The position numbers and the translations under genes are program-made. This document shows, piece by piece, positions 1-28,360 of a DNA stretch of 64,000 bases. The notes beneath the pieces were generated by a model. That model was not told where the DNA came from, made no database searches, and was given only the letters and a program-made list of their open reading frames with translations. Each line of letters starts with the position of its first letter. The stretch's first letter is position 1. The DNA is from Cystobacter fuscus. GTDB lineage: Bacteria > Myxococcota > Myxococcia > Myxococcales > Myxococcaceae. The stretch is taken from positions 868,001 to 932,000 of the forward strand of contig NZ_CP022098.1 in the NCBI RefSeq assembly GCF_002305875.1, read 5' to 3'.

Positions 1-145
1 GCGCGCCTATGGGCTGGGCGTCAACGCCTACGTGGTGAAGCCGGTGGGGTTCAACGCCTTCACCTCCGCGCTCAAGGAGCTGGGGCTGTTCTGGGCCATC
101 CTCAACGAGCCTCCTCCAGGCACGGTGCGCAAGGACAGCCGCTGA
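1..145 (+). CDS. Response regulator, C-terminal end (5' truncated by window)
   Basis: Only the last 47 codons are present, read in the frame beginning at base 2. The peptide contains NAYVVKPVGFNAF, the conserved lysine region (beta5-alpha5) of a CheY-like receiver, followed by LGLFWAILNEPP, a tail typical of Rcp1-type single-domain response regulators that partner phytochrome-like or hybrid histidine kinases. Its TGA overlaps the ATG of the next gene (TGATG at 143-147), so the two are almost certainly co-translated and probably belong to one phosphorelay. The phosphoacceptor aspartate lies outside the window. Confidence 0.85.
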   Translation, partial: RAYGLGVNAYVVKPVGFNAFTSALKELGLFWAILNEPPPGTVRKDSR

Positions 146-2703
146 TGCGCATCCCGGATCCGCTGGCCTCCGAGGTGGCTCCGTCCAGCACGGGGCGCCC
201 GCTCTCCGTGCTGATGCTGGAGGACAGCGCGCTGGACGCCGAGCTCATCCACGCCCGCCTGCAGGACGGTGGCCTGACGGCGCACGTGGTGCGGGTGGAC
301 ACCCAGGAGGCGTTCACCGCCGCGCTCGGCCGTGAGCGCTTCGATGTCATCCTCTGCGACTACAGCGTCCCGGGCTTTGGCGGCACCGCCGCGCTCGCCA
401 CGGCGCGCCAGGCCTGTCCCGACACGCCCTTCCTCTTCGTCTCGGGCGCGCTGGGCGAGGACCGGGCCATCGAGCTGCTCAAGAGCGGCGCCACGGACTA
501 CGTCCTCAAGGATCGGCTCGAGCGCCTGGTGCCCAGCGTCGAGCGCGCCCTGCGCGAGGCCCAGGGCGCCGCCGAGCGCGAGCGCGCCGAGGTGGCGCTG
601 CGTCAGTCCGAGGAGCGCTACCGCCTGGCCACCCTGGCCACCTCGGATGCCGTCTGGGATTGGGACCTGCTCACCCACGTGGTGCAGTGGAACGACGCCG
701 TGGAGACGCTCTTCGGCTACTCGAGGGAGGAGATCCGCCAGGATGCCTCCTGGTGGGAAAGGGCCATCCACCCCGAGGATCGCGAGCGCGTGAAGCGGGG
801 CATCCAGACCGCCGTCTCCACGGGGGCGCGGCGCTGGCAGGAGCAGTTCCGCTTCCGCCGCAAGGATGGCCGCTACACCCACGTGGTGGACCGGGGCCAC
901 GTCTCCCATGACGCCTCGGGCCGGCCGGTGCGCATGGTGGGCGTGATGCAGGACGTCTCCGCGCAGAAGGAGGTGGAGGCGGTGCTGTCGCGCCAGGCCC
1001 GCCTCAGCCAGTTGATGGCGGACGTGGGGCTGGCGCTCACCCGGGGCTCGCACCGGCGGGACATGCTGGGGCGGTGTGTCGAGGCCATGGTGCGGCACCT
1101 GGACGCGGCGTTTGCCCGGGTGTGGTTGCTCGAGGAGGCCGTGGCGTTGCTCGTGCCCGAGGCCAGCGCGGGCACGTCCGCTCCACCCGAGGAGCTGTTC
1201 GGCCAGGTGCCGCTCGGCTCGCCGCTGCTGGTGGGTCGTCTGGCCCGGACGCGCACGCCCGCCGTGCCCACTCCTCCTGGGGCGGACGCGCGGGAGGCGG
1301 AGCTGGAGTGGGTGGCGCGCGAGGGCCTGGGGGGCCTGGTGGGCCATCCGCTGCGCGTGGGGGACAAGACGCTGGGCGTGGTGGTGGTGGTGGCGCGAGC
1401 GCCCTTCACCCAGGGCTGCCTCGACACCCTCCAGCACGCCGCGGACAGCATCGCCCTGGGGCTGGAGCGGCTGCGCGCGGAGGAGGACGTCGCGCGCCTG
1501 CTCGAAGGCGAGAAGGCCGCGCGCACCGCCGCCGAGGAGGCCAGCCGCCTCAAGGACGAGTTCCTCGCCACGGTGAGCCATGAGCTGCGCACGCCCCTCA
1601 CCGCCATGCTCGGCTGGGTGCGCCTGTTGCGCATGGGCGGCCTGTCCGAGGACAAGCGCGAGCGCGCCCTGGAGACCGTGGAGCGCAACGCGCGCGCCCA
1701 GGCCCAGCTCATCGAGGATCTGCTCGATGTGAGCCGCATCATGGTGGGCAAGCTCAAGCTGGACGTGGTGCCGGTGGAGCTCTCGTCCGTGGTGGCGCAG
1801 GCGCTCGAGGTGGTGCGCCCCGCCGCGGATGCGAAGAACATCCAGGTGCGGCTCGTGCTCGACGCCTCGTGCCGGGTGATGGGGGACGCGCAGCGGCTGC
1901 AACAGGTGGCGTGGAACCTGCTCGCCAACGCGGTGAAGTTCACGCCCCAGTCGGGCCAGGTGCGGGTGGAGATGGCCCGGCGCGGCGCGCTCGTGCACCT
2001 CACCGTGACGGACACCGGCGAGGGCATCTCCCCGGACTTCCTGCCGCATGTCTTCGAGCGCTTCCGTCAGGCCGATGGCAGCACCACGCGCAGGTTCGGC
2101 GGACTCGGACTGGGCCTGTCCATCGTGCGCCACCTGGTGGAGATGCATGGGGGCACGGTGGCCGTCGCGAGCGAAGGCGTGGGCCGCGGGGCCACCTTCA
2201 CGGTGGACCTGCCCGAGGCCTCGTCCTCTCGCCGGGCGAACACCCCGCTCCCCGGCGATCCGCGGCGGGCGGGAGCGCTTGCCTCCGACGCCTGCCCTCC
2301 CGAACTCATCGGCCTGCACGTGCTCGTGGTGGAGGAGGACGCGGACACCCGGGAGCTGCTGCGCACGTGGCTGGAGTCCTGTCAGGCCCGTGTCTCGGTG
2401 GCCGCCTCCGCCCGCGAGGCCCTCGAGGCGCTCGCGCGCCTGTCCCCCGACGTCCTGCTGTCCGACCTCGGGGGGCCGGAAGGCGAGGGCGAGGCCCTCA
2501 TCCGGTGGGTGCGCTCCCTGCCCGTGGAAGCCGGAGGCGGCATCCCCGCGGCGGCCCTCACCGCCTTCGCTCGCACCGAGGAGCGCACGCGGGTGCTGCG
2601 CGCCGGCTTCAACAGCCACGTGCCCAAGCCCGTGGATCCGCTCGAGTTGTTCGCCGTCCTGGCCTCCCTCTCCGGACGGGGCGCCCGGGGCGGCGCGCGG
2701 TGA
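145..2703 (+). CDS. Hybrid sensor histidine kinase, REC-PAS-GAF-HisKA-HATPase-REC
   Basis: 852 residues, no membrane segment, so a cytoplasmic kinase. Domains in order: receiver at about 20-135 (phosphoacceptor D72 in CDYSVP, conserved lysine in YVLKD), PAS at about 150-275 ([18 protein letters not shown]), GAF-like region 285-445, HisKA with H479 in SHELRTPL, HATPase at about 590-700 (N box [16 protein letters not shown]), and a C-terminal receiver from about 725 with [10 protein letters not shown] and PKPVD. The terminal receiver is slightly degenerate but keeps an Asp and Lys. Starts at the ATG overlapping the stop of the upstream response regulator. The input signal cannot be told from sequence. 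Confidence 0.93.
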
Positions 2704-2716: not shown

Positions 2717-3439
2717 TCAGCCGCTCTGGAGCATGAACCGCGGGGGCTCGGCGTGCTCCCGGGGCCGCGCTCCTTCCGCGTGCAGGCGCGCCTCGGTGAG
2801 CACCCGCGCCTCGACACAGAGGTCCGTGCCGAGGAAGTCCCGGCCGAGCCGCGCCGCCGCCACGCCCACCGAGCCCGAGCCCATGAACGGGTCCACCACC
2901 ACGTCCCCGGGCTCGCTGCTCTGGCGGATGAGCACCTCGCTCAAGCCGGCGGGCTTCTCCGTCGGGTAGCCCCGGTGGATGCGCGGCACGCTCAGCACGT
3001 CCGCCACGCCCAGGTCGCTCAAGCGCCGCCGGCCCTTCTCGAAGAAGAGGATGAACTCGTAGCGGGCCCGGTAGTGGTAGCCCATTCCAATGTGCTGCTT
3101 GTCCCACACCAGTGGCTTCCAGAACCGGAAGCCCGCGGCTTCCGCGAGCGGCCGGGCGATGAACATCGTCTCCGCGTCACAGAAGAGATAGAAGTGCGAG
3201 TCGCGCTTCATCACCCGCCACAGCCCCTGGAACAGCTCCGGGAAGCGCGCGTTCGGGAAGATGGGGAACCAGGCGTTGGTCGAGCCCTTGCCCCGCTTGA
3301 GGCGTGTCGTGGTGCCCACCGCGCGGTGCTTCTCCAGGGACTCGTAGGCGGGATCCGTGATGACGAGATCGACCGAGGCCGCCGGGAGGGTCCGGAGCCA
3401 TTCGACGGCGTCACCGTGCGCGAGGCGATAGTGGGACAT
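2717..3439 (-). CDS. Site-specific DNA methyltransferase (N4-cytosine / N6-adenine type)
   Basis: 240 residues. Catalytic motif IV DPAY appears near residue 29 (VDLVITDPAYESLEK) and the AdoMet motif I near residue 178 (DPFMGSGSVGVAA). Motif IV before motif I is the beta-class order. The family transfers a methyl group from S-adenosylmethionine to an exocyclic amino group of adenine or cytosine in a specific site; the target cannot be read from the sequence. No restriction enzyme gene is adjacent, so this is an orphan methyltransferase, more likely epigenetic or regulatory than part of a restriction system. It converges with the hybrid kinase (13 bp between stops) and diverges from the P450-like gene. 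Confidence 0.9.
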   Translation of the reverse strand: MSHYRLAHGDAVEWLRTLPAASVDLVITDPAYESLEKHRAVGTTTRLKRGKGSTNAWFPIFPNARFPELFQGLWRVMKRDSHFYLFCDAETMFIARPLAEAAGFRFWKPLVWDKQHIGMGYHYRARYEFILFFEKGRRRLSDLGVADVLSVPRIHRGYPTEKPAGLSEVLIRQSSEPGDVVVDPFMGSGSVGVAAARLGRDFLGTDLCVEARVLTEARLHAEGARPREHAEPPRFMLQSG

Positions 3440-3922: not shown

Positions 3923-5146
3923 ATGTCGATTGCGGCCCGTCAGTCCCACCCCCGTTCGCTCGAGAGCGAGACCTTGTTCGATCCGACGCCGCGCCGGGCG
4001 TTGGGGGAAGAAGGGCCGGTGTACTGGTCGGAGGCGTCGCGGGGCTGGATCATCCGTGGGCACGAGGACGTGCTGGGCTGCCTGCGCGACTCGCGGCTGG
4101 GCGCCTCGTATGAGGAGCTGCTCGACGTGCGGCTGCGGGGGCTGAGCCCCGAGCTGGCCGGGGCCCTGCGCGAGACGTTCGCCGCGCATCCGTGGGATGG
4201 ACGCGAGGCCGCGCCGCTGCGCCGTCAGGCCGCTCCGGGCTTCACGCCCCAGGTGCTCGACGACTGTCGTCCGATCATCCGCGGCCTCGCGACGCGGCTG
4301 GTGCGGCGGGGTGGGCAGGACCGGATGGACGCGGTACGGGCGGTGTGCGCGCCCCTGCCCGCGCTCGTGCTCGCCGAGGTGTTCGCCCTTCCCGAGCGGG
4401 ACCGGGAGCCCTTCCTCGCCTGGGCATGGCAGCTCGCGGACTTCCACTCACTGGCCGCGGACGCGGATCGGGGCGCCCTGGCGCGGGCGGCCCTGGGGGC
4501 GACGCGTGGCTTGCTCTCCTGGCTCACCCCCCTGCTCGAGGAGCGGCGCCGGGCACCCGGCGAGGATCTGCTCAGTCGGATGCTCCAGATCGAGCAGCCG
4601 GGAGCGCGCACCGCGGTGCAGCGGGTGTCCACGCTCGCCCTGCTGCTCGTCTGCGAGCTCGGGTTCGTGACGGATCAGCTCGGCAATGTGTTGCATGAGG
4701 TGCTCGCGCGTCCCGAGCTCTGGCGCATGCTCCGGGTGGATCGCTCGAGGATCCGGCCGGCCGTGGAGGAGGCGCTGCGCTTCCAGCCCGCGCGGCCCCT
4801 GCTGTCCCGCGTCGTCGGGGAGACCCTCACGCTGCGCGGGCGCACCCTGCGACCGGGCGAGGCGGTGTTCCTGGACGTGGCCACCGCCAACCGGGATCCC
4901 CAGGTCTTCACCACGCCGGAACGCTTCGATCTCCAGCGGGACGCCACCCGGCAGAAGCACATGACGTTTGGTTTCGGACTGCACCACCGTCTGGACGCGG
5001 GGCTCATCCGTCACCAGCTGGAGTGCGTCCTCGAGGTGCTGTTGGAGGAGTTCCCCGGCCTGCGCCTGGACGAGGATCGCCCGCCCCGGCTCAAGCGTCA
5101 CGGTCCGCTGGTGCGAGGCTTCGAGACCCTGCCCGTGCGGTGGTGA
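3923..5146 (+). CDS. Cytochrome P450-like protein lacking the haem-ligand cysteine
   Basis: 407 residues from ATG 3923, chosen because GAGGA lies 5 bases upstream and the length then matches bacterial P450s; GTG 3881 and ATG 3905 are in-frame alternatives. The fold is clear: PRLKRHGPLVRGF tail, ExxR as EALR, and the haem-loop context HMTFGFGLHHRLDAG. In normal P450s that loop reads FGxGxHxCxG; here the cysteine is arginine and the following glycine aspartate. The I-helix AGxET proton-relay motif is also gone (VCELGF). A haem-thiolate enzyme is therefore not possible. Known precedents for cysteine-less P450 relatives are auxiliary partners of glycosyltransferases (DesVIII/EryCII) and NRPS X-domains; no such partner is nearby. 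The reading frame is intact, so it is not a simple pseudogene. Confidence 0.85.
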   Translation: MSIAARQSHPRSLESETLFDPTPRRALGEEGPVYWSEASRGWIIRGHEDVLGCLRDSRLGASYEELLDVRLRGLSPELAGALRETFAAHPWDGREAAPLRRQAAPGFTPQVLDDCRPIIRGLATRLVRRGGQDRMDAVRAVCAPLPALVLAEVFALPERDREPFLAWAWQLADFHSLAADADRGALARAALGATRGLLSWLTPLLEERRRAPGEDLLSRMLQIEQPGARTAVQRVSTLALLLVCELGFVTDQLGNVLHEVLARPELWRMLRVDRSRIRPAVEEALRFQPARPLLSRVVGETLTLRGRTLRPGEAVFLDVATANRDPQVFTTPERFDLQRDATRQKHMTFGFGLHHRLDAGLIRHQLECVLEVLLEEFPGLRLDEDRPPRLKRHGPLVRGFETLPVRW

Positions 5147-5347
5147 AGGACCTCCAGGGAGACGGGGCCCTTGTCTGGCGGCAGGCAGGGGGAGCGTGCA
5201 CCGGCCGATGCCGGGCGTGCCCCACGGGATGAGAGGCTGTCGGTTAAAATATCTCCCAGGGGCCCGGATCCGGGGTGGATTTCAGATCGGGCCGGACCTC
5301 CTGCTAGGCTGCGATTTCCAGACATCCTCGTCGCCGTGGGGGAGTGC

Positions 5348-6832
5348 GTGTCCTTCGTCCAGTTGCCCGAGAGCCCCGTTAGCTGCCGCAACCTCGTGGG
5401 GGGCGAGTGGCTCGTTCCACGAGACGTCCCGCTCGCCGAGGTGATCAGCCCCTATACCGGAGGCATCATCGGCCGGGTGCCGATGACGTCCGAGGCGGGC
5501 GTGGCCCAGGCGGTGGAAGCGGCGCGGGCGGCGGTGCCTGGCTGGCGCGCCACGCCCCTGCGCGAGCGCACCACGCTCATGGCGCGCTTCCGCTCGCTGC
5601 TCGAGTCCCAGTTGGATCGCCTGTCCCATCTGGCCGCCAGCGAGGCGGGCAAGACGGTGGCCGAGGCGCGCGCGGGCCTGCTCAAGGGCCTGGAGGTGTG
5701 TGACTTCGCGCTGTCGCTGCAGAACCTGGATGCCGGCGGCGCCATGGAGGTGAGCCGCGGCATCACCTGCGAGTTCCGCCGCGAGCCCCTGGGCGTGGTG
5801 GCGGGCATCACCCCGTTCAACTTCCCCGCCATGGTGCCGATGTGGATGATTCCCATCGCGCTCACGGTGGGCAACTGCTTCATCCTCAAGCCCTCGGAGA
5901 AGGTGCCGCTCACGGCGTGCGCGCTCGGGGAGCTGCTGGTGGAGGCGGGCCTGCCGCGTGGCGTGTTCTCCGTGGTGCACGGCGGACGCGAGGCGGTGGA
6001 GGCCCTGGTGGCCCATCCGGACGTGCGCGCGGTGGCCTTCGTGGGCTCGTCCGCGGTGGCGCGGCGCGTGTACGCGGAAGGCAGCGCGCGGGGCAAGCGC
6101 GTGCTGGCGCTCGGTGGCGCGAAGAACCACCTCATCGTCGCGCCGGACGCGGACGAGGCCCTCACCTCGCAGGCCGTGGTGGACTCCTTCACCGGGTGCG
6201 CGGGCCAGCGCTGCATGGCGGCGAGCGTGATGCTCGCGGTGGGGAACGTGGATCACATCCTCGAGCAGGTGCGCGAGCGCGCCTCGCGGCTGGAGTGTGG
6301 CCCTGGCATGGGCGCCATCATCGACCGGGCGAGCCTCACGCGGCTGGAGACGGCCATTGCCACGGCGGAGAAGGCCGGCGCGCGGGTGGTGCTGGACGGA
6401 CGCGGCAAGCGTCCCGCGGGCGAGTCCTGGGCGGGGGGCCACTGGCTCGGTCCGACCATCCTCGACGGGGTGCGCCCGGACATGGAGGCGGCGCAGCGCG
6501 AGCTGTTCGGCCCGGTGCTGTCCATCGTGCGCGTGCCCACCCTGTCCGCGGCGCTCGAGGTGGAGAACGCCTCGCCCTATGGCAACGCGGCCTCCATCTT
6601 CACCACCAACGGCGCGGTGGCGCAGGCGGTGGTCGAGGGAGCACGCGTGGGCATGGTCGGCGTCAACGTGGGCGTGCCCGTGCCCCGCGAGCCCTTCTCC
6701 TTCGGCGGTACTGGCGAGTCCAAGTTCGGTCATGGCGACATCACGGGTGTCGCGAGCCTCGGCTTCTGGACGGACCTCAAGAAGGTCACCCGGAAGTGGA
6801 GCACCCGCACCGACGGCAGCTGGATGAGCTGA
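5348..6832 (+). CDS. mmsA: CoA-acylating (methyl)malonate-semialdehyde dehydrogenase
   Basis: 494 residues. Belongs to the aldehyde dehydrogenase superfamily, MmsA branch: it has the NAD-binding GITPFNFPAMVPMWM segment, GAKNH in place of the usual ELGGK, and catalytic C289 in CAGQRCMA. The family oxidises malonate or methylmalonate semialdehyde with NAD and CoA to acetyl- or propionyl-CoA plus CO2. Start GTG 5348 follows GGGGGAG and gives the usual MmsA length (about 500); an upstream in-frame extension to 5171 is unlikely to be translated. It lies 42 bases before URC1, and in the uracil URC pathway, whose product is 3-hydroxypropionate, the next steps would need exactly this enzyme. Assignment to malonate semialdehyde rather than valine catabolism is inferred from this context. 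Confidence 0.9.
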   Translation: MSFVQLPESPVSCRNLVGGEWLVPRDVPLAEVISPYTGGIIGRVPMTSEAGVAQAVEAARAAVPGWRATPLRERTTLMARFRSLLESQLDRLSHLAASEAGKTVAEARAGLLKGLEVCDFALSLQNLDAGGAMEVSRGITCEFRREPLGVVAGITPFNFPAMVPMWMIPIALTVGNCFILKPSEKVPLTACALGELLVEAGLPRGVFSVVHGGREAVEALVAHPDVRAVAFVGSSAVARRVYAEGSARGKRVLALGGAKNHLIVAPDADEALTSQAVVDSFTGCAGQRCMAASVMLAVGNVDHILEQVRERASRLECGPGMGAIIDRASLTRLETAIATAEKAGARVVLDGRGKRPAGESWAGGHWLGPTILDGVRPDMEAAQRELFGPVLSIVRVPTLSAALEVENASPYGNAASIFTTNGAVAQAVVEGARVGMVGVNVGVPVPREPFSFGGTGESKFGHGDITGVASLGFWTDLKKVTRKWSTRTDGSWMS

Positions 6833-6874
6833 CGCACACGCCTTTCGCATCTCGAGTTCCAAGGAGGGCGAGTC

Positions 6875-8128
6875 ATGCCCGACAAGAAGGTCAGCAACCA
6901 CATTCGTCTCACGTCCCACCCCGACAGCGACACGCAGGTCCTCCCCATCCGCTGGGGAGACCCGGACCCCCTGCGCCGGGGCCCCGTCATCGCCACGCTG
7001 ACCGAGCCCGCGCACCGCAACGTCGTCGGCACGCACTCGGGCTCCTACGCCATCTACCGCGCCATCGCCGTGGCCGCGGGCCAGCTCACGCAGGACCACC
7101 GCGCGGACCTCACCAACACGGCGCCCGCCGTGCAGGTGGGCCCCTACAAGTCCTGGGGCGATCCCAACCGCATCGTGTCCCTGGACCCGTGGGGCGCCGT
7201 GGCGCCGCAGGTCTTCCAGAACTACGTGCAGCAGGGCATGGACATCCGGCCCTCCATCGCCATCACTCGCGCGCACATCAACATGCCGGAGCTGCGTGAC
7301 GCCATCACCGCGGGCCGCCTCAAGCCGGATGGGAAGATCCTCTGCGCCAACGGCGACGTGACGGTGGTGAAGGCGGCCCTCGAGCCGGTGTGGTACCTGC
7401 CGGGAATCGCCAGGCGCTTCGGGCTGACCGAGGCGGCGCTGCGCCGTGGCCTCTTCGAGCAGACGGGCGGCATGTTCCCCGAGCTCATCACCCGCTCGGA
7501 CCTGGACGTGTTCCTGCCGCCCATCGGCGGCCAGACGCTCTACTTCTTCGGGGACATGGACACCATTCCCAACCCCGACGTCCCGCTCGCGGTGCGCGTG
7601 CACGACGAGTGCAACGGCTCGGACGTGTTCGGCAGCGACATCTGCACCTGCCGGCCCTACCTCACGCATGGCATCGAAGTCTGCATCCAGACGGCGCAGG
7701 AGGGTGGCGCGGGCGTCATCGCCTACTCGCGCAAGGAGGGCCGCGCGCTCGGCGAGGTGACGAAGTTCCTCGTGTACAACGCGCGCAAGCGCCAGGAGGG
7801 CGGTGACTCGGCCGCCACCTACTTCCATCGCACCGAGTGCGTGGCGGGCGTGCAGGACATGCGCTTCCAGGAACTGATGCCGGACGCGCTGCACTGGCTG
7901 GGCATCACCCGCATCCACCGCTTCGTGTCCATGAGCGACATGAAGCACGACGCCATCGTCAACTCCGGTATCGAGATCCTCGAGCGCGTGCCCATTCCGG
8001 AGGAGCTCATCCCCGCGGACGCCAAGGTGGAGATGGAGGCGAAGAAGGCCGCCGGCTACTTCACCACCGGCAAGGTGGCCACCGAGTCGGAGCTGCAGGC
8101 GGTGAAGGGCAGGGCGCTCGATGCCTGA
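6875..8128 (+). CDS. urc1: URC1: GTP cyclohydrolase II-like protein of uracil catabolism
   Basis: 417 residues: an N-terminal ~190-residue extension (NTAPAVQVGPYKSWGDPNRI) followed by a GTP cyclohydrolase II domain. The zinc-cysteine cluster is kept (DECNGSDVFGSDICTC), while the active-site block reads SRKEGRALGEVTK instead of RQEGRGIGL. The long extension and this variant block distinguish URC1 of the fungal/bacterial uracil pathway from riboflavin-pathway RibA (~200 residues). URC1 is thought to open the pyrimidine ring of a uridine nucleotide intermediate. Start ATG has AGGAGGGCGAGTC upstream. Overlaps URC4 by 8 bases, indicating one operon. Confidence 0.9.
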   Translation: MPDKKVSNHIRLTSHPDSDTQVLPIRWGDPDPLRRGPVIATLTEPAHRNVVGTHSGSYAIYRAIAVAAGQLTQDHRADLTNTAPAVQVGPYKSWGDPNRIVSLDPWGAVAPQVFQNYVQQGMDIRPSIAITRAHINMPELRDAITAGRLKPDGKILCANGDVTVVKAALEPVWYLPGIARRFGLTEAALRRGLFEQTGGMFPELITRSDLDVFLPPIGGQTLYFFGDMDTIPNPDVPLAVRVHDECNGSDVFGSDICTCRPYLTHGIEVCIQTAQEGGAGVIAYSRKEGRALGEVTKFLVYNARKRQEGGDSAATYFHRTECVAGVQDMRFQELMPDALHWLGITRIHRFVSMSDMKHDAIVNSGIEILERVPIPEELIPADAKVEMEAKKAAGYFTTGKVATESELQAVKGRALDA

Positions 8129-9317
8129 GGCGCCCGCGGCCGCCGTCTCCTATCTGCTCGGCCCGCGCGCCATCCGCGAGCGGTGCCAGGCCCTGCTGGA
8201 GCTGGGGCTCGCGGGCCGGCTCGAGCACTTCCGCGTGGACCCGGCGCGGCTGCCCGCCGTGGCGGACTACGTGTTGGAGGTGACACGCGAGGCCTATCCC
8301 TCGCTCGACATCCCGGTGCACAGCCGCTGGGGCCACTTCGACGTGGGCGGCGTCCAGCGCAACGCGGAGCTGGAGGCGCGGCTGGCCCCGCTGCCTCCCG
8401 CCGAGCGTGCCCGGGCGAAGTTGGACCTGGTGGTCACCAGCGTGCTGCTGGACGCGGGCAGCGGGCCCACGTGGAAGTACCAGGAGCCCGGTGGCGGCAC
8501 CTACGCGCGCTCCGAGGGCCTGGCCGTGGCCAGCTTCCGCATGTTCCTCGCGGGCGCGTTCTCCTCGGATGCCTCCCAGCCCCTGCGCGCCGACGCCGAG
8601 GGCTTGCGCAACCTGAGCCTCGAGGCGCTCGCGGAGGGCTTCCAGGTGACGGAGGACAACCCGCTCGCGGGCCTGGAGGGACGGCTCGAGCTGCTGCACG
8701 GCCTGGGCCGGGTGTTGCCCAGGCCCGGGTCGCTCTTTGATCGCCTCGCGGCCCATGGCCGGCGGGAGGTGACGGCGACGCAGGTGCTGGGGCAGGTGCT
8801 CCAGTCGCTGGGGCCCATCTGGCCGGGCCGCATCACCCTGGATGGGGTGAACCTGGGCGACGTGTGGCCGCACTCGGCGCTGGGCGCCCTGGATCATCCC
8901 GACTCCCTGGTGCCCTTCCACAAGCTGTCGCAGTGGCTCACCTACTCGCTGCTGGAGCCGCTGGCGGAAGGGGGCCTCCGGGTGACGGGACTGGAGGCGC
9001 TCACCGGACTGCCCGAGTACCGCAACGGCGGGCTGCTGGTGGACGGAGGCGTGCTGGTGCCCCGGGACGAGCGGCTGTTCACGGACACGTACAAGCCGGG
9101 CTCGGAGCCCATCGTGGAGTGGCGGGCGCTGACGGTGGCGCTGCTGGACGAGGTGGGCCAGCGCGTGCGCGAGCGGCTCGGGATGACGGCCGAGCAGCTC
9201 CCGCTGGCCAAGGTGCTCCAGGGGGGCACGTGGAGCGCGGGCCGGAAGCTGGCCGCCCAGAAACGCCCGGGTGGTCCGCCACCCATCCGCATCGAGAGCG
9301 ACGGAACCGTGTTCTGA
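8121..9317 (+). CDS. urc4: URC4: DUF1688 family protein of uracil catabolism
   Basis: 398 residues, matching the DUF1688 family by its opening [13 protein letters not shown], the internal [14 protein letters not shown] and the closing [19 protein letters not shown]. In Lachancea kluyveri URC4 is required for uracil breakdown but its reaction has not been settled; it always travels with URC1. Starts inside the URC1 gene (ATGCCTGA, 8-base overlap), which implies translational coupling. Followed 32 bases later by the uracil phosphoribosyltransferase that should feed the pathway. Confidence 0.9.
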
Positions 9318-9349
9318 GTTTCAACGAAAAATGGGAAGGGGAGATCGCG

Positions 9350-9988
<639 letters not shown>

Positions 9989-10873: not shown

Positions 10874-12505
10874 ATGACCGGACGCGGGGCGTGGCTCGTC
10901 GTGGACGTGGTGGGCGTGGCGGGGGTGGACACCCTCGGGGCGCTCCTTCCGGGGGCTCCAGGGGCCGCCCAGGCCCGGGCCTGGATGATCGCCGAGGTGA
11001 ACGCCGCCGTGGAGGGCCTGTTGTCGGCGGGCTTCACGCGCGTGCGGGTGAGCGATGCTTCGTGCTCCGCCGCTCCCTTCACGGGCGGGGAGGCACTCCA
11101 CCCCGGGGCCGAGCCGTGCTCCGGGGAGGACCCCCTGGCGCCCGTGTGGCTCGAGGACGTCCAGGGGGTGGCGTGTGTGGGCATGCACGCGGCGGCCGGG
11201 ACGGGGGGCTTTGGCGCGCATACCGGGGGGCCGCTGTGCGTCTGGACGTGCGCGGGCCGGACGCTGTCCGAGGCGGAGCTCGTGCTGGCGCTGGCGGCGG
11301 AGGCGGGGGTGCCCGCCGTGTTCGTCTCGGGGGACGACGTGCTGCGGGCGGGGCTGGAGGGGCGGGTGGGCTATGTGTGCACCAAGACCGCCGTGTCCAC
11401 CGAGCGGGCCGTGTCGCGCGCTCCCGAGGAGGTCCTCGAGGAGCTGCGGCGCGTGGCGGCCCGGCCCGGCCAGGACCAGGCGCCGCTTCCGGACGCTCCG
11501 CTCGTGCTCTGCTTCAAGAGCGCCCACCAGGCGACGCTCGCCGAGCGCACCGGCGCCCGCCGGCTGGATGCGTACCGCGTGGAGGTGTCGGGCCGTACCT
11601 TCCGGGAGCGCTATACCCACGCCCGGCGGGCCATGGCGGAAGCGGGCCGGGTGCTGCCCGGGGCGGGCTCGGGCTCCTTCGTCTTCACCCCGGAAGCGCT
11701 GGCCCTCCTGCGGCTGCCAGGACCTCCCGCGGTCCCGCCTCCGGCGCGGGCGCGGGAGGCGGAGCTCGCCCTGGATGCGTTCCTCGCGCTGACGGCGGGG
11801 GAGGACGACGCGTCCCGGGCGCTGCGCGCGCTGACGCTGCACATGCTGGAAGGTCACGCCCCGGGGGTCTTCGCGCGCTGGGGGCTGGGCGCCCGTGTGG
11901 AGGAGGCGGTGGAGGCACTCACGGGGGTGGCCCTGGAGTTTCCCGCCGGGCTGTCCCCGGATGTGGGCATGTCCCGGGTGGATGCCTGGTACGTGAGGGG
12001 CGAGCGCGGTTTGTCGACCGCTCCCCTGGCACCCGGGGCACTGCGTGACTACCTGCTGCACCTCGATGACGAGGGGTATGGGCTTCATGGGTGGCTGCTG
12101 GGTGAAATCGCCGCCACGCGGGGGGTGGACGTGCGCTGGTCCGTCCCCGAGCGGGCGTTTCGTGGGGTGTCGCGCCGGGCGGACCTCTACTGGCTCACCC
12201 ACCTGTTCTTGTTGGACACGCGCTACCTGCGCTCCCCGCTGCGAGCCCCGGACGCCAGCGCGTGGACGGAGGAATTGCTGGCGGCCACGCCCGAGCTCAT
12301 CGAGGGCATGGACCTGGACCTGGCGGCCGAAGTGGTCTTCTGCCTTCAGTGTGTGGGGGAGTCCGGAGGAGGCGCGCATGAGTCCCTCCTGGCGTTGCTC
12401 GCCGCGGAGCAGCGGCCCGATGGCGCCGTGGGTGATGCGCATTCCACCGCGGCGGCCCTGCTCGCGTTCGCTGGCGCGCTTGAACGCACCGTCTCCGTTC
12501 CCTGA
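10874..12505 (+). CDS. M55 (DppA-like) D-aminopeptidase homologue fused to a helical domain; metal site degraded
   Basis: 543 residues. The first ~260 align to M55 D-aminopeptidases: LVVDVVGVAGV matches the opening SVDMEGISG, VSDAS matches VNDSH, CVGMHAAAG matches LGYHA, and VSGDD matches VAGDD. By that alignment two zinc ligands are replaced (E10 to Val, H60 to Ser) while D8, H104, H115 and E133 equivalents remain, so normal di-zinc peptidase activity is doubtful. Residues ~300-543 form a helical region with YWLTHLFLLDTRY and AEQRPDGAVGDAHST, reminiscent of alpha/alpha-toroid repeats and possibly of DUF6895. ATG 10874 has AGGAGG 5 bases upstream. Role unknown. Confidence 0.75.
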   Translation: MTGRGAWLVVDVVGVAGVDTLGALLPGAPGAAQARAWMIAEVNAAVEGLLSAGFTRVRVSDASCSAAPFTGGEALHPGAEPCSGEDPLAPVWLEDVQGVACVGMHAAAGTGGFGAHTGGPLCVWTCAGRTLSEAELVLALAAEAGVPAVFVSGDDVLRAGLEGRVGYVCTKTAVSTERAVSRAPEEVLEELRRVAARPGQDQAPLPDAPLVLCFKSAHQATLAERTGARRLDAYRVEVSGRTFRERYTHARRAMAEAGRVLPGAGSGSFVFTPEALALLRLPGPPAVPPPARAREAELALDAFLALTAGEDDASRALRALTLHMLEGHAPGVFARWGLGARVEEAVEALTGVALEFPAGLSPDVGMSRVDAWYVRGERGLSTAPLAPGALRDYLLHLDDEGYGLHGWLLGEIAATRGVDVRWSVPERAFRGVSRRADLYWLTHLFLLDTRYLRSPLRAPDASAWTEELLAATPELIEGMDLDLAAEVVFCLQCVGESGGGAHESLLALLAAEQRPDGAVGDAHSTAAALLAFAGALERTVSVP

Positions 12506-12732: not shown

Positions 12733-13716
12733 ATGGGGTTCACGTCTTTCAGGAGTTTTTGGAGCGGGATGGCCGGGCGTGGGGCTGCGTCACGGGGGGT
12801 GACGTGTCGATTGTCGTTGGTGCTGTCATTGATGATTGGTGTCGTGGCGTGTGGCGTGGAGCAACCGCCCGACGAGATGCAGGTCCTGGTGTCGGAGTCG
12901 CAAACGTTTCAGGAAGACAATGGGTTGTCGCTCAATGGGCTGTCGCTCAATGGGTTGTCGCTCAATGGGCTGTCGCTCAATGGGCTGTCGCTCAATGGCT
13001 TGAACAGCGAGGACTTCATTACCTGGTTCAACAGCGCCGATGGCGGCAACCTGGCGGGTCATGAAACGCTGATGAAGTACATGGTGCGCTGCGCGGTGCC
13101 CGAGGGAGAGGTCCGTGTCTTCGTCAATCCGACCACGGGCGTACGCTATGTCTGGGAAGGCGGCATGGGATTGGCTCCCCTCTGGTCGGGCGGCACTCCG
13201 GCGACCCTGGCGGAGCAGCAGGTCATCTCCGCGTGTCTGGCGGCCCACGTCAACAACCATGGGGTGCATGTCCCCATCTCCGTGCTGGGCAAGGACTCGA
13301 TGGGGGGCATCGTCCCCTACTCGCGTGTGGAACTCATGACCTTCGCCCAGCGCGAGGCGTGCTTCTTCGGCAACGTCTTCGTCCCGGGTGGCACGCTCTT
13401 CGCCGGCAACCACATGGACGCGCTGTCGCCCGAACAGAGCACCCCTCGGCCATGCGGCCTGCTCGGCCTGGGGATGATGAGCAACCCGGCCTGCACCCAG
13501 ATGCAGCGCATCGGTCAGTGCCTGGACCACTGCCGGTTGGAGCCCAATGGCTACTTCTACAGCGAGTGCACCTACAACGGCGTGACGTACAGGCCGCTCA
13601 CCACCCGCATCCGCCCCTCGGACGTGAATGTCTGCGGCGATGGCGTGTGCCAGGTGGGTGAGAGCAAGGGCACGGGTTACACCGCCGACAGCTGCGGCAT
13701 CGACTGCGGGAGCTGA
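12733..13716 (+). CDS. Secreted lipoprotein with NGLSL pentapeptide repeats and a CGDGVC tail
   Basis: 327 residues. A type II signal peptide ends in GVVAC, so the protein should be lipid-anchored. Right after it come five tandem NGLSL units (about residues 63-90), a signature of many myxobacterial exported proteins. The remaining body is rich in cysteine (CAVPEG, REACFFG, PRPCGLLG, CTQMQRIGQCLDHC) and ends with NVCGDGVCQVGESKG...CGIDCG, the delta-proteobacterial cysteine motif often seen at protein ends. No catalytic motif was recognised. ATG 12733 has GGAGG upstream. Function unknown. Confidence 0.82.
   Translation: MGFTSFRSFWSGMAGRGAASRGVTCRLSLVLSLMIGVVACGVEQPPDEMQVLVSESQTFQEDNGLSLNGLSLNGLSLNGLSLNGLSLNGLNSEDFITWFNSADGGNLAGHETLMKYMVRCAVPEGEVRVFVNPTTGVRYVWEGGMGLAPLWSGGTPATLAEQQVISACLAAHVNNHGVHVPISVLGKDSMGGIVPYSRVELMTFAQREACFFGNVFVPGGTLFAGNHMDALSPEQSTPRPCGLLGLGMMSNPACTQMQRIGQCLDHCRLEPNGYFYSECTYNGVTYRPLTTRIRPSDVNVCGDGVCQVGESKGTGYTADSCGIDCGS
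12919..12993 (+). repeat. Five tandem 15-bp repeats encoding NGLSL
   Basis: Five direct copies of AATGGG(T/C)TGTCGCTC, differing only by T/C in the leucine codon, followed by a partial copy AATGGCTTG. Unit length is a multiple of three, so slippage changes repeat number without a frameshift. Confidence 0.95.
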
Positions 13717-13769: not shown

Positions 13770-15161
13770 TCACGCGCTCTGGAGCTGGGGCTGCTTCTCG
13801 CGGCGCGTGGCGTGCATGGGCATGGTTCCGTGCGGCCGCAGGGTGACGTGGGCCTCCGCGGTGACGGGGGCTCCGGTGCCTCGCAGGCGGAAGCGCTGGG
13901 CCACCATGGCGAGGATGAACTGCGCCTCCATCATCGCGAAGTTGTTGCCGATGCACTGGCGCTGCCCGCCTCCGAAGGGCAGGTAGGCCCACCGCGGGCG
14001 CTGCTTGCTGTTCTCCGGCAGGAAGCGCGTGGGCTCGAAGCGCTCCGGGTCGGGCCAGAAGTCCGGGTGGCGGTGGGTGACGTAGGGCACCAGCAGCACC
14101 AGGTCCCCCTTGGGAATCCGGTAGCCGCTCACCACGTCCTCCTCCTCCGCCACGCGCGGAATGGCCCAGATGGGCGGATAGAGGCGCAGCGCCTCCTCGA
14201 ACACGCAGCTCGTGTAGCGCAGCTTCGGCACGTCCTCGAGCGTGGGGATGCGCCCGTCGAGCACGCGGTCCACCTCCTCGTGCAGCAGCGCCTCCTGCTC
14301 CGGGTTCTTCTCCAGCAGGTGGAACGCCCACGCGAGCGAGGTGGCCGTCGTCTCGTGGCCCGCGAGCAGCAGCGTCATCACCTCGTCGCGCAACTGCACG
14401 TCGTCGAAGGTGTCTCCCGTGTCCGCGTCGCGCGCGGCCATCAGCATGCCGAGCAGATCCTGCGACTCGTCCGCGGGCCCCCTCGCCCGGCGCTGGGCGA
14501 TGATGCCCTCGACGATGCGGTTGAGCGGCACCATGGCCCGCTGGAAGGCGAGGTTCTTCGCGGTGGGAATCCGGTAGAGCCACGGCTTGTAGGGCAGCGG
14601 GGAGATGATGCGCTCGTTGGTGACTTCCAGCGCCGTGGTGAAGGACTCACCCAGCTCCCGGGTGTGCTCGGCCACGTCCACGCCGAAGAGCGCGCGCACC
14701 ACCACCAGCAAGGTGAGCCGCATCATCTCCGGGAAGACGGGCACGGGCTCACCCGCCCTCACCCGAGGCTCCCACTGCGCGAGCACCTCGGCGGCCGTCT
14801 CCGTCATCACGCCCGCGAGCCCCGCCAGGCGCTCGCGGTGGAAGGAGGGCTGGGCGAGCCGGCGCTGGCGCTTCCAGAAGTCGCCCTCGGCCGTCACCAG
14901 GCCGTTGCCCACCAGGGGGCGCGTCTTGTGGAAGATGGGGCCCTTGGTGTAGCGCGCCGGCGCGTCCGCGAGCACGTACTTGACGTGATCCGGGTGCGTG
15001 AGCTGCTCCACGTAGATGGGCCCCATGCGGAAGCGCACCACGTCTCCCAGGAGCGCACGGCCGCGCAGATAGAGGCCGAGCGGATCACTCTCGCGCTCGG
15101 GGAGGTGGCCCCAGAGCCAATGGCCTGGGGGCATGGGAGGCAGGGGTGCGGAGTTGTTCAT
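13770..15161 (-). CDS. Cytochrome P450 (canonical)
   Basis: 463 residues from ATG 15161. All key motifs are intact: I-helix LLAGHETTATSLAW, ExxR as FEEALR, PERF (WPDPERFEPTRF), and haem loop PFGGGQRQCIGNNF with ligand C403. It is a soluble bacterial class with resemblance to CYP102/CYP4-type fatty acid hydroxylases, so a monooxygenase needing separate redox partners, none of which is adjacent. It contrasts with the cysteine-less homologue at 3923-5146. Substrate unknown. No strong ribosome site precedes the start. Confidence 0.92.
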   Translation of the reverse strand: MNNSAPLPPMPPGHWLWGHLPERESDPLGLYLRGRALLGDVVRFRMGPIYVEQLTHPDHVKYVLADAPARYTKGPIFHKTRPLVGNGLVTAEGDFWKRQRRLAQPSFHRERLAGLAGVMTETAAEVLAQWEPRVRAGEPVPVFPEMMRLTLLVVVRALFGVDVAEHTRELGESFTTALEVTNERIISPLPYKPWLYRIPTAKNLAFQRAMVPLNRIVEGIIAQRRARGPADESQDLLGMLMAARDADTGDTFDDVQLRDEVMTLLLAGHETTATSLAWAFHLLEKNPEQEALLHEEVDRVLDGRIPTLEDVPKLRYTSCVFEEALRLYPPIWAIPRVAEEEDVVSGYRIPKGDLVLLVPYVTHRHPDFWPDPERFEPTRFLPENSKQRPRWAYLPFGGGQRQCIGNNFAMMEAQFILAMVAQRFRLRGTGAPVTAEAHVTLRPHGTMPMHATRREKQPQLQSA

Positions 15162-15299
15162 GGGGGTCCACCACGGGGGTCGGGAGAGCTGCGGCCCACA
15201 TTGTGGACGACGCGGCGTGCCATCGCCAGGGGCGCCCCGGGAGCACGGGCGTGAAGCGGCCCGTAGCACGAGCCACGGGCGTGGGAGCGCGGCCCGGAC

Positions 15300-21337: not shown

Positions 21338-23491
21338 ATGCGGAGACTCATCCATTCACTCTCTACCGGCGGGCTTTCCGTCACGAGGCCGTGCATGGCG
21401 CCGGTGTGGTGGGCCCTGGCGGTGGTGTTGCTGGTGGGGTGTGCCACGGGGGCGCCGCCCGGCGGACTGAGGAGTGGCTGGGGGATGGGCGGTTCGGGGG
21501 GACTCTCCCTGCAGAGGGGAGGAGCGGGGGAGGTGCTCGCGTGTGGAGGCGTGCCCATGCCCGCGGGCTGGCCCGACGTGGCCGCCGGCGATGCGGAGGC
21601 GCTGTTGGCTCCGTTGCTGAAGTGTCCCACGCCCGGAGACTACGTGGCGTTGCAGCAGCGGGTGGACATGCCCCGGCTGGTGGAGGCGTTGGATGACTGG
21701 AGTGCCATGCGGCTGGCGGCCCTGGGCCCCGTGCGCGCGGACGCCGTGGGAGTCCTCAACGCCAAACGCGTCTCCTTCCTGCTCGCCGCCGCCGAGAGGT
21801 ATGGCCTCGAGCACGCCGAGGTATTCACCCTCTACGTGCTGCACACGGCGCACGATGACGAAGTGGACGGGGTGTTGCGGGGGTTGGCCCGAGACAAGCA
21901 ATTGGGGAGGACGCTGGGGCACATGCCCGCGGTGCGGGAGGAGTTGGCGGGGCGAGGCATGCCGCTGTCGGCCTATGAGGAGCGGGGCGAGAAGGCGGGT
22001 GACGTGCTGCGGGGGCTGGGCCGAGCCGCGAGGGATGCGCTGGCCACGAGCATGGCGAGCGATGGCGTGCGCTACATGGAGATGGCCGAGCGGCGGGGGC
22101 AGTTGCCGGCGCCCTACCAGGACGCGCTGAATGAGGTGGAGAGGGAACTGGCATGGAGGCACTTCGCCCCGGGAAGCGTGGCGGTGGGGAGTTTCGACGC
22201 GGCGACGTTTGGAGTGCCGCTGGGATTCTTCTACCTGGTGGTGGGGACGGGCGAGGGACTGTCCTCGCTGACGCGAGGCGAGTACGAGCAGGCCACACGC
22301 GAGCTGGCGCCGGCGGCGCTGGTGGTGGGGTTGTACGCGGGAGGGCGGGGCGTGCGCGCCTTGGGGGAGGCCCGGGGGTTGGGGCGTCTGGAGGCACGTC
22401 TTTCGCTGCTGAGAGAGCTGGGGAGGCAGTGGGAGGAGCGGCTGGGGGTGGAGGGGGCGCGGGAGTTGCTGAGGGACATCCGGGCGCGGAGGGAAGCGGC
22501 GCACTTCGTGGCGATGGGAGGAGCGGACGCGGCGCTGGCGTTGCGAGAGGCGAGGGGGGATGTGGCGCGGGCACAGGTGTGGCTGTCCCAGGCGAAACCT
22601 CCGCGCGCTGGCGGCGGAACGGGGAGCGGCTCCGGGCACGTGGCCTCGGCAGTGGACGGCACGGGACGCCCCTCTCCGACGCGGGCCCTGGCCGTCGAGC
22701 GCACCGGGAGCATGGCCTCGCTGGTGGACGAGGCGGAGGGCCTCACCCGGGAGGTGGTGGAGGCTCGGCTGGCGTTGGTGGAACTCGACGCCGAGGGCCC
22801 GCGCCTGTCCAGGGACGTAGCGGTGTTGGAGCGGCAGCGGCCTTCACTGGAGGCTCCGCCGCCCGGAGCGGAAGGCAACCCGCTCTGGAGCGAGTACGTC
22901 ACCTACCGAGAGAAGCGCCTCGGGGAACTCAAGCAGGGCAAGGCCGTCGAAGGGCCTCTGCGTTGGGAGGGCTATGAGCGGATGCGGAGGGGGTTCGCCC
23001 AGGGGCTGGCCTTCGAGAGCCTCATGGTGGACAGGCTGCGTGCGGACGCGGCCCTGCCCCGAGCCGAGCGCCGATTCCTCGGGGACTTCGAGCGGCCGCG
23101 CATCGAGAGATGGGTGGGCGTGTGGAAGCACGAGAGCGGCCTGCGCTTCGCGGATGTGCTCGTCATCGAAGAGGGTCCGAGTGCTGGACGGTCGCCTCGC
23201 GTCGAGACGTTCAGCTTCAAGAGCCGCGACATGAAGGGATTGAGTGGAAGCTCCCTGCGAGCGCAGATAGTGGCGGACGCGAAGGAGGCCCTGGGTTATT
23301 ACGGTGAGACGTTGGACATCCGTCGGCCCTCCCTCCAATCCCTTCTGCGCGGGGGTAGCAAGGTGCCGGTTCAAAGGGTCCGCCTCATCTACGAGCGCAG
23401 TCATCTCGATCCCACGAATACAGCCAAATTGTATAGAGCCATGAGCGAGGCCCAGGAGCAGATTCCCGGGGTCGAGGTGTCGTTCCAATGA
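21338..23491 (+). CDS. Cassette gene A1: large lipoprotein with variable C-terminal tip (toxin candidate)
   Basis: 717 residues. ATG 21338 is the site conserved in all three copies (TTCATGCGGAGAC); GTG 21332 is possible. Lipobox LLVGC gives an outer-membrane lipoprotein. A helical body follows, with a hydrophobic patch (PLGFFYLVVGTGEG, APAALVVGLYAGG). Near the end, RFADVLVIEEG followed by VETFSFKSR has the D...E-x3-K spacing of a possible PD-(D/E)XK nuclease, and YYGETLDIRR follows. The last ~88 residues are copy-specific. Its stop overlaps B1 by ATGA. The pattern is that of a polymorphic toxin; the nuclease call is inference. Confidence 0.7.
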   Translation: MRRLIHSLSTGGLSVTRPCMAPVWWALAVVLLVGCATGAPPGGLRSGWGMGGSGGLSLQRGGAGEVLACGGVPMPAGWPDVAAGDAEALLAPLLKCPTPGDYVALQQRVDMPRLVEALDDWSAMRLAALGPVRADAVGVLNAKRVSFLLAAAERYGLEHAEVFTLYVLHTAHDDEVDGVLRGLARDKQLGRTLGHMPAVREELAGRGMPLSAYEERGEKAGDVLRGLGRAARDALATSMASDGVRYMEMAERRGQLPAPYQDALNEVERELAWRHFAPGSVAVGSFDAATFGVPLGFFYLVVGTGEGLSSLTRGEYEQATRELAPAALVVGLYAGGRGVRALGEARGLGRLEARLSLLRELGRQWEERLGVEGARELLRDIRARREAAHFVAMGGADAALALREARGDVARAQVWLSQAKPPRAGGGTGSGSGHVASAVDGTGRPSPTRALAVERTGSMASLVDEAEGLTREVVEARLALVELDAEGPRLSRDVAVLERQRPSLEAPPPGAEGNPLWSEYVTYREKRLGELKQGKAVEGPLRWEGYERMRRGFAQGLAFESLMVDRLRADAALPRAERRFLGDFERPRIERWVGVWKHESGLRFADVLVIEEGPSAGRSPRVETFSFKSRDMKGLSGSSLRAQIVADAKEALGYYGETLDIRRPSLQSLLRGGSKVPVQRVRLIYERSHLDPTNTAKLYRAMSEAQEQIPGVEVSFQ

Positions 23492-23956
23492 AGAGACTGA
23501 AGTTTCACGACGTGAAGGAGGAGGACTACCTCCGACTTGATTTCAAAGGTGCTTTGGGCTCATGGGCTTCGCCGGGGAGCGAACTGGAGCCTTTTCTCCA
23601 AGCGCTCGAGGAGTACGCAGGCGAGTGGATGCCAGACGTCGTTGAAGGCAAGCGGCGACGTAAATACAACCGCGCCGCCATCTGGAAGGCATTAGAGGAG
23701 GCACGTGACGGGGACTTCGTAACAATTGGCCTCTATCGTACGAAATGGCCCGCGCTGGACATGACGCTCCGGCTCCGTTTGCCGCCGCAGAGCCCCGAAT
23801 TGTTCTGCACGATCGATGTAAAACCGCTTTCCCTCTTCAATGAGGAGGAACGCTGTCGGCCATTCGTGGAGATGGTGCGTGTCTGGGCCTCTCGTTACCC
23901 GGTGTCCCATGCTCTAGCCCATAGTTCTGATGACGGAGAAGTCGCGGGCGCTCCTC
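23227..23956 (+). other. Variable junction block of cassette 1
   Basis: Spans the last ~88 codons of A1 and the first ~156 of B1. Sequence here is visibly poorer in G/C at third codon positions than the flanking A and B bodies (for example AATACAGCCAAATTGTATAG near 23426). Confidence 0.75.
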
Positions 23957-24834
23957 TCTTTGGCCGGGATATGCAGACGTCTATTCGAGATGGATTCGAC
24001 AAAATCTACGAGGTGTCCTGGCTCAACGTCTTCGGTCCGAAGCTGGTGGAGTCCGTGGGTCGCGAGCGCATGCTGTCCACGCCCGCCTGGTGGGTGGAGG
24101 AGTTGCCCAATGGCTCCATCTTCCTCGTGACGCGGCCCACGCCAGCGGACTTCGCCAGCGACGAGGCCCGCCTCGCCCAGGCCCGTGCCCATGTCCACCT
24201 CCGGCCGGACCTGGACTTCGACACCGTGCTGCGCGGCCTGCGCGAGCGCAGCGCCCTGCTCGCTCCCGTGGAGCCCCGCTTCCCTCCGGACGTGGAACCG
24301 TTCCTCTCGCGCGTGGTGGAGCGCATCTCCAGTCACGTGCGCTCGCGCAAAATCGCCGAGTTCAACGCCTGGCGTCCGCCCGAGCCGGACGAGTGGCGTC
24401 CCGCCGACTCCGCCCTGCCGCCAGACGTGGAGGATGTGGAGCGAGCGCGCGCGCATTATCGCTACCTCGCCGAGCACCTGGTGGCGCTGCTGCACACGAA
24501 GGTACCCTCCGTCTTCGACACGACGCCCGAGTCCCTCTCGGACGTGGACTACGAGTTCTGGCATCAGGAATTCCCACGAGTCTTCGAGCGGGAGAAGCTC
24601 GACACGCTCGCGGTGCCCGCCATAGGCGCGTACCTGGGCGAGGTGCTGGTGCGCCACCTGGGGGGACAGTGGATACCGCGCCAGAAGCTCGAGGAGGCGC
24701 AGGTGCGCGTGGGAGACCGGGTCTGGCTCCCGTTCGTCCGAGCCTGGCGCTACATGCGCACCTGCCAGTCGCTGCTGGACTTCTCCCTCACCCAGCTCTA
24801 CCGCGTCGCCGAGCGGCACCGCGCCGCCGGGTGA
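23488..24834 (+). CDS. Cassette gene B1: candidate immunity protein, Imm52-like
   Basis: 448 residues, no signal peptide or membrane helix, so cytoplasmic. Overlaps A1 by 4 bases (ATGA). Residues 1-160 are copy-specific; residues 165-448 are almost the same in all copies. The middle (YEVSWLNVFGPKLVESVG, then ELPNGSIFLVT) resembles the Imm52 family of immunity proteins known from polymorphic toxin loci; the last ~150 residues form a separate helical domain (YRYLAEHLVALLHTKVPSVF, PRQKLEEAQVRVGDRVWLPF). Expected to bind and block the A1 tip. The Imm52 match is from memory of the family and needs a profile search. Confidence 0.65.
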   Translation: MKRLKFHDVKEEDYLRLDFKGALGSWASPGSELEPFLQALEEYAGEWMPDVVEGKRRRKYNRAAIWKALEEARDGDFVTIGLYRTKWPALDMTLRLRLPPQSPELFCTIDVKPLSLFNEEERCRPFVEMVRVWASRYPVSHALAHSSDDGEVAGAPLFGRDMQTSIRDGFDKIYEVSWLNVFGPKLVESVGRERMLSTPAWWVEELPNGSIFLVTRPTPADFASDEARLAQARAHVHLRPDLDFDTVLRGLRERSALLAPVEPRFPPDVEPFLSRVVERISSHVRSRKIAEFNAWRPPEPDEWRPADSALPPDVEDVERARAHYRYLAEHLVALLHTKVPSVFDTTPESLSDVDYEFWHQEFPRVFEREKLDTLAVPAIGAYLGEVLVRHLGGQWIPRQKLEEAQVRVGDRVWLPFVRAWRYMRTCQSLLDFSLTQLYRVAERHRAAG

Positions 24835-27017: not shown

Positions 27018-27482
27018 AGATACTGGAGTTTTACGGTGTGAAAGAGGAGGACTACCTTCGACTCAAGTTCGAAGGCACCTTTGGCTCGCGATCCTCATTG
27101 GAGAGCGAACTGGAGCCTTTTCTCCAAGGGCTCGAGAAATACGCAGGCGGATGGATGCCGGACGTCGTTCAAGGCAAGCGACGGCGCAAATACAACCGCG
27201 CCGCCATCTGGAAGGGATTGGATGAGGCACGCGACGGGGATAGCACCGCCGTTGGGTTCTACCGTACGAAATGGCCCGTGTTGGACATGGACCTATGGCT
27301 CTGGCTTCCGCCACGGATTCCAGAGCTGCACATCATCATCAAGGTGAAACCGCTCTCCTTCTTCTCTGTGGAGGAACACTGTCGGCCGTTCGTGGAGATG
27401 GTTCGCGCCTGGGCCTCTCGTTACCCGGTGTCCTATGCAGTGGCCCGTAGTTCTGATGACGGAGAAGTCGCGGGCGCTCCTC
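26760..27482 (+). other. Variable junction block of cassette 2
   Basis: Same position as in cassette 1 but different content (for example ATGAAGATTGAAGACTTGGA near 26946). Divergence begins right after the codons for SFKSR in A2 and ends near GFGRDMQTS of B2. Confidence 0.75.
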
Positions 27483-28360
27483 GCTTTGGCCGGGATATGC
27501 AGACATCCATCCGAGACGGGTTCGACAAGATCTACGAGGTGTCCTGGCTCAACGTCTTCGGCCCGAAGTTGGTGGAGTCCGTGGGCCGCGAGCGCATGCT
27601 GTCCACGCCGGCCTGGCGGGTGGAGGAGTTGCCCAATGGCTCCATCTTCCTCGTGACGCGGCCCACGCCAGCGGACTTCGCCAGCGACGAGGCCCGCCTC
27701 GCCCAGGCCCGTGCCCATGTCCACCTCCGGCCGGACCTGGACTTCGACACCGTGCTGCGCGGCCTGCGCGAGCGCAGCGCCCTGCTCGCCCCCGTGGAGC
27801 CCCGCTTCCCTCCGGACGTGGAGCCGTTCCTCTCGCGCGTGGTGGAGCGCATCTCCAGTCACGTGCGCTCGCGCAAAATCGCCGAGTTCAACGCCTGGCG
27901 TCCGCCCGAGCCGGACGAGTGGCGTCCCGCCGACTCCGCCTTGCCGCCAGACGTGGAGGAGGTGGAGCGAGCGCGTGCGCATTACCGCTACCTCGCCGAG
28001 CACCTGGTGGCGCTGCTGCACACGAAGGTACCCTCCGTCTTCGACACGACGCCCGAGTCCCTCTCGGACGTGGACTACGAGTTCTGGCATCAGGAATTCC
28101 CACGAGTCTTCGAGCGGGAGAAGCTCGACACGCTCGCGGTGCCCGCCATAGGCGCGTACCTGGGCGAGGTGCTGGTGCGCCACCTGGGGGGACAGTGGAT
28201 ACCGCGCCAGAAGCTCGAGGAGGCGCAGGTGCGCGTGGGAGACCGGGTCTGGCTCCCGTTCGTCCGGGCCTGGCGCTACATGCGCACCTGCCAGTCGCTG
28301 CTGGACTTCTCCCTCACCCAGCTCTACCACGTCGCCGAGAAGCACCGCGCCGCCGGGTGA
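27014..28360 (+). CDS. Cassette gene B2: candidate immunity protein, Imm52-like
   Basis: 448 residues. Compared with B1, about 40 of the first 160 residues differ, but only about five of the remaining ~285. Differences in the head include charge reversals (K5E, D18K, K20E, D110K), as expected for a changed binding face. Tail ends YHVAEKHRAAG against YRVAERHRAAG in B1 and B3. Overlaps A2 by ATGA and is followed 23 bases later by A3. Confidence 0.65.
   Translation: MKILEFYGVKEEDYLRLKFEGTFGSRSSLESELEPFLQGLEKYAGGWMPDVVQGKRRRKYNRAAIWKGLDEARDGDSTAVGFYRTKWPVLDMDLWLWLPPRIPELHIIIKVKPLSFFSVEEHCRPFVEMVRAWASRYPVSYAVARSSDDGEVAGAPRFGRDMQTSIRDGFDKIYEVSWLNVFGPKLVESVGRERMLSTPAWRVEELPNGSIFLVTRPTPADFASDEARLAQARAHVHLRPDLDFDTVLRGLRERSALLAPVEPRFPPDVEPFLSRVVERISSHVRSRKIAEFNAWRPPEPDEWRPADSALPPDVEEVERARAHYRYLAEHLVALLHTKVPSVFDTTPESLSDVDYEFWHQEFPRVFEREKLDTLAVPAIGAYLGEVLVRHLGGQWIPRQKLEEAQVRVGDRVWLPFVRAWRYMRTCQSLLDFSLTQLYHVAEKHRAAG

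Follow-up and report, generated by a model that had tools for sequence, protein, structure and literature searches.

A P450-fold protein without the haem-thiolate cysteine, retained in four species of a myxobacterial genus

The locus and its reading frame

The window analysed here is the whole 64,000-nucleotide stretch of Cystobacter fuscus DNA, and all coordinates refer to it. The gene of interest, whose product is designated P0001, lies between a divergent DNA methyltransferase gene and a uracil-catabolism operon. The features that bear on it are as follows.

145..2703, + strand: hybrid PAS/GAF histidine kinase, a neighbour conserved within the genus
2717..3439, - strand: N6/N4-type DNA methyltransferase, the divergent neighbour, with an orthologue next to a P450 in the sister genus as well
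3923..5146, + strand: cysteine-less P450-fold protein P0001, 407 aa, open from the ATG at 3923 to the stop at 5146
4208..4222, + strand: C-helix with His (position 96) lost and Arg100 kept; in the alignment, 2 residues shorter than relatives just 5' of this segment
4649..4669, + strand: I-helix segment V243-V249, VCELGFV instead of the AGHxTT of Cys-bearing relatives
4769..4780, + strand: K-helix ExxR (E283-R286), kept, with E283 and R286 invariant
4988..4990, + strand: CGT, by codon comparison Arg356 in the position of the haem-thiolate Cys
4994..4996, + strand: GAC, Asp358 in the Gly position of CxG in 4/4 species of the genus
5147..5347, + strand: intergenic region of ~200 bases 5' of the URC operon; it contains CCTGCTAGGCT, a conserved promoter-like element recognised by eye
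5339..9988, + strand: URC-type uracil-catabolism operon, a neighbour that is probably outside the P0001 system

A ribosome-site-like GAGGAA lies directly 5' of the ATG at 3923. An in-frame GTG at 3881 offers an alternative upstream start, and the ATG was favoured because the MSxAA N-terminus aligns in relatives. P0001 matched the Pfam p450 model (PF00067) above the gathering score (E = 1.8e-12), mostly through its C-terminal third; this match and the fold searches described below place it in the P450 superfamily by both homology and fold.

Residues of the haem site

The haem loop of P0001 reads FGFGLHHRLDAG, also given as FGFGLHHRLDAGLIR. Among 39 aligned relatives, position 356 was Cys and position 358 was Gly, each in at least 90%. 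The axial Cys of FxxGxxxCxG is absent from P0001 and its orthologues, which carry R356 and D358 in all four species. A preliminary description of this DNA had proposed a cysteine-less P450 with an intact frame, and this was borne out over the full 407 aa. It had placed the Arg codon at 5006-5008, which was wrong by six codons.

The same description regarded the I-helix motif as lost, and this stood in part. The A/G-G-x-D/E/H-T motif is missing, with VCELGFV, VSGLGFV, and VSGLASF as the orthologue variants, but the replacement is fixed only partly: at position 245, two species of the genus have Glu and the other two still have Gly. Loss of the C-helix His at position 96 is an additional change that had gone unmentioned. 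ExxR and the overall length are kept, as had been stated, and fold and frame persist; R100, E283, R286, R296, and H354 are unchanged across all four orthologues. Of 77 family-invariant sites, 46 were retained by all four proteins. An enrichment of haem-site changes among the altered conserved sites was suggestive only (Fisher p = 0.057 without ExxR and 0.23 with ExxR).

Predicted structure

An AlphaFold2 model built on a 40-sequence alignment had a mean pLDDT of 86.8 and a pTM of 0.89, with a C helix at residues 97 to 107 and a long I helix at residues 231 to 261; the model contains no placed haem, and its first 20 residues are of low confidence. The best solved folds, matched over the full length, were P450BioI (Z 43.8) and CYP109 (Z ~43). 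Together, P450BioI and CYP109/CYP107 (PDB 3ejd, 5l91, and 8yhn) gave VIA Z values of ~42 to 44 at 24 to 29% identity; unlike P0001, these closest solved folds belong to active haem-thiolate enzymes. The predicted fold of P0001 is that of an ordinary P450. The fold predicted for a Cys-less P450 may simply carry over from its relatives, and the model therefore speaks for the compatibility of sequence and fold only.

Distribution and phylogeny

The genus was sampled by four species, with one orthologue per genome. The three other orthologues are 93, 86, and 49% identical to P0001, HHRLDAG is present in all four, and the surrounding gene order is conserved throughout. In the same genome, a query with P0001 matched 38 P450-like proteins, and each of the other 37 carries Cys at the aligned position. 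RLD in 4/4 members of the genus against Cys in 37/37 other P450-like proteins is therefore above chance. A second P450 inside the window, at 13770-15269, has the Cys as well.

A model built from the four orthologues was run against 96 genomes of the family. Its scores were 702 to 834 bits within the genus; outside it, the top score was 458 bits, from a sister-genus P450 that has the Cys. Across 195 genomes of the phylum, a degenerate-DNA search recovered three members of the genus and one chance match, the non-P450 L134. A Leu codon in the first position of the motif makes this search overlook the fourth species, and the protein-model search is therefore the better test. A literature search, with most subscription journals outside its reach, found no report of the P0001 protein.

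In a maximum-likelihood tree, the four Cys-less proteins formed one clade (100/100), which joined two Cys-bearing P450s of the sister genus, one from genome G105 and one from G104 (99/98). These nearest Cys-bearing relatives (L198, G105 C1:2976387-2977619; L204, G104 C302:72617-73825) are ~46% identical and, unlike P0001, possess the Cys, the AGHxTT I-helix, and the C-helix His. Close homologues with Cys had been named in advance as a sign of recent inactivation. They occur only in the sister genus, where they represent the ancestral state; within the genus, Arg356 is found in 4/4 species. Recent inactivation was ruled out, given an Arg common to species at 49% identity.

The Arg codon is CGT in two of the species and CGG in the other two, and both sister-genus genes have TGC. 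The simplest history is a single loss of the Cys on the stem of the genus, from TGC to CGN, by one transition plus drift. On the tree, evolution was faster after this loss, with branch lengths of 0.47 for the stem and then 0.59 and 0.81; the Cys-bearing sisters, at 0.18 to 0.27, evolved several times more slowly.

The P450 gene of G105 adjoins an orthologue of the methyltransferase in the same divergent orientation as in the window. In three other sister-genus genomes, the P450 near the methyltransferase (L199, L200, and L201) falls in another subclade than the G105 protein, and two more genomes have none. Positional orthology is therefore supported for one species and not established for the whole genus. 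The subclade of L199 to L201 suggests that the gene at the site was replaced or that duplicates were lost differentially. The PAS/GAF histidine kinase was not found adjoining the methyltransferase in the sister genus.

Selection on the gene

Identity to the fourth species is ~49% for P0001, the lowest value in the neighbourhood, compared with 65 to 93% for its neighbours (kinase, 65 to 68%; methyltransferase, 84%; URC4, 82 to 83%; dehydrogenase, 87%; cyclohydrolase-like protein, 92 to 93%). Selection was estimated by simple counting methods applied to GC-rich genes, the GC3 of the orthologues being 0.89 to 0.97. With the most distant pairs left out, dN/dS (YN00) was 0.17 to 0.19 for the P0001 gene; three paralogues that have the Cys gave 0.05 to 0.13 when the same species were paired. 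In codons with a single change, the nonsynonymous fraction was 0.49 to 0.59, compared with 0.74 to 0.76 expected without selection from shuffled substitutions; this is ~5 to 9 standard deviations under neutral for all pairs. No stop was observed, against ~5 expected in the widest pairs, and there were no frameshifts. Purifying selection on the P0001 gene is relaxed yet significant. The earlier proposal that the protein is under selection for something else holds as regards measurable, though relaxed, purifying selection.

Genomic neighbourhood

The URC operon contains genes for an MMSDH-like aldehyde dehydrogenase, the GTP cyclohydrolase II-like PRK07198, DUF1688 (URC4), and uracil phosphoribosyltransferase. 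Its DUF1688 gene is present in 63 of the 96 family genomes, and at the 16 loci outside the genus that were inspected, no P450-like gene adjoins the operon. A variant of CCTGCTAGGCT, a putative promoter compared by eye, lies upstream of the URC operon in some other genera that have no P450-like gene there. Since the operon is conserved across the family without the P0001 gene, the neighbourhood is probably incidental and says little on function. The proximity noted previously is thus real and conserved in the genus but probably functionally uninformative, and a functional link between P0001 and uracil catabolism was not supported.

Neither a glycosyltransferase nor an NRPS was recognised in the 16 kb upstream or in the part of the window scanned downstream (a subset of frames). 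The absence of an adjoining glycosyltransferase, already remarked on, was confirmed: there is none among the identified neighbours and no EryCIII-like match near 0.87 Mb.

Several other genes of the window, all on the + strand, were recorded in passing. The gene at 10874-12505 encodes a Peptidase_M55 D-aminopeptidase domain fused with DUF6895. The product of 12733-13713 has about five tandem NGLSL pentapeptides near its N-terminus and no Pfam match; it is 85 to 88% identical in two congeners. Three similar 448-aa paralogues (MKxLxFxxVKEEDYLRLxF...) are encoded at 23488-24831, 27014-28357, and 30543-31886, with a spacing of ~3.5 kb. The first of them had no Pfam match, and they are possibly a duplicated cassette of the effector/immunity type. 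The gene at 32504-37783 encodes a hybrid histidine kinase of 1760 aa, in which nine HAMP matches and two receiver domains were recognised.

Discussion

Because the Cys is lost and the protein is nevertheless intact in 4/4 species, P0001 has probably been kept for a non-oxidising role, as a binding or partner protein, and not as an enzyme. We consider it reasonably likely that it is a P450 pseudoenzyme specific to this lineage, which arose independently of the cases already known and has been kept for a ligand- or partner-binding role. By the tree and alignments, a single event on the stem of the genus removed the thiolate Cys from what had been a Cys-bearing P450 belonging to a myxobacterial subfamily. 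The His of the C-helix and the I-helix residues of O2 activation were also lost or altered, and the gene has since stayed intact in four species under relaxed purifying selection. Such a protein would have no haem-thiolate, would probably be haem-free, and would carry out no P450 oxygen chemistry. The retained scaffold would most likely act non-catalytically: the old pocket may hold a small hydrophobic ligand, or the scaffold may engage a protein partner. A narrower version, which we put forward tentatively, is that the Arg/Asp loop may form part of a new non-oxidative site, as a ligand sensor or allosteric partner, in a genus-specific pseudoenzyme outside the activator family. Over only four species, fixed R and D give modest evidence that the two residues are themselves constrained.

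P0001 is the fastest-evolving gene in its neighbourhood, and a weakly useful or slowly decaying gene therefore fits too. Under slow decay, the role would have gone with the Cys and the gene would be drifting into a pseudogene; the constraint that is left would act mostly against toxic misfolding. The long branches of the clade (0.47, 0.59, and 0.81 against 0.18 to 0.27) and a dN/dS ~2 to 3 times that of the paralogues agree with this account. Four intact frames of high GC3, the marked deficit of nonsynonymous changes, the 46 family-invariant sites kept in all four proteins, and the confident predicted fold do not, and we regard slow decay as rather unlikely, if still to be taken seriously.

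Haem may still be bound, since the haem-propionate contacts R100, R296, and H354 are kept, as is ExxR. With another protein ligand or none, P0001 could be a haem sensor, a carrier, or a peroxidase- or isomerase-like enzyme. This seems improbable, as H96, Cys356, Gly358, and the I-helix AGHxTT are all altered. Arg is an unusual haem ligand, and the second His of HHR is not a new one because Cys-bearing relatives also have it (HHC).

Like P0001, EryCII, DesVIII, and AknT (TIGR04515) have a P450 fold without the haem-thiolate Cys, and they are presumably non-catalytic (PMC3391682, PMC10054333). The kinship to such glycosyltransferase activators that the preliminary description had brought up did not survive comparison. 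TIGR04515 is the best NCBIfam match of P0001 by E-value, but the score of 142.7 bits is far under the cut-off of 343 and lower than those of the Cys-bearing sister (169) and many ordinary P450s of the same genomes (145 to 207). EryCII has an extra N-terminal A'' helix and has lost the C helix (PMC3391682), whereas P0001 has no A'' helix or N-terminal extension relative to its Cys-bearing relatives and retains the C helix. Score and anatomy rule out membership of the activator family, and P0001 represents a separate evolutionary loss without a linked glycosyltransferase. EryCII was absent among the 50 structural matches listed, which is no evidence either way. EryCIII-like glycosyltransferase genes were present in 8/8 genomes checked, this one included, and so leave room for an unlinked partner; they are, however, as common in genomes without P0001 as in those with it, and an activator of the EryCII/DesVIII kind is very improbable.

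The earlier remark that cysteine-less P450 relatives dock on NRPSs seems to go back to the X-domain of glycopeptide NRPSs, an inactive domain of the condensation type by which normal P450s are recruited (PMC5238595). The X-domain is catalytically dead and protein-recruiting, as P0001 may be, but it is not a P450. Finally, an error of sequencing or assembly at the Cys codon is refuted and has practically no probability left, since the same residues occur in four separate assemblies and the differing CGT and CGG codons show that the shared Arg is not a copied error.

One survey of proteobacterial P450s retained only proteins with both EXXR and CXG (PMC9148083); Cys-less P450s would therefore be dropped there and may be under-counted. 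In the case of P0001, the ancestral Cys-bearing state can be read beside the same neighbour gene in the sister genus, which allows a direct before/after comparison. Among P450 homologues without haem, those known to have a proven role are mainly glycosyltransferase activators from actinomycete antibiotic clusters. P0001 is an independent Cys loss in another phylum and outside an antibiotic cluster, and if the protein has indeed taken on a new role, it would represent another independent origin of functional haem-less bacterial P450s.
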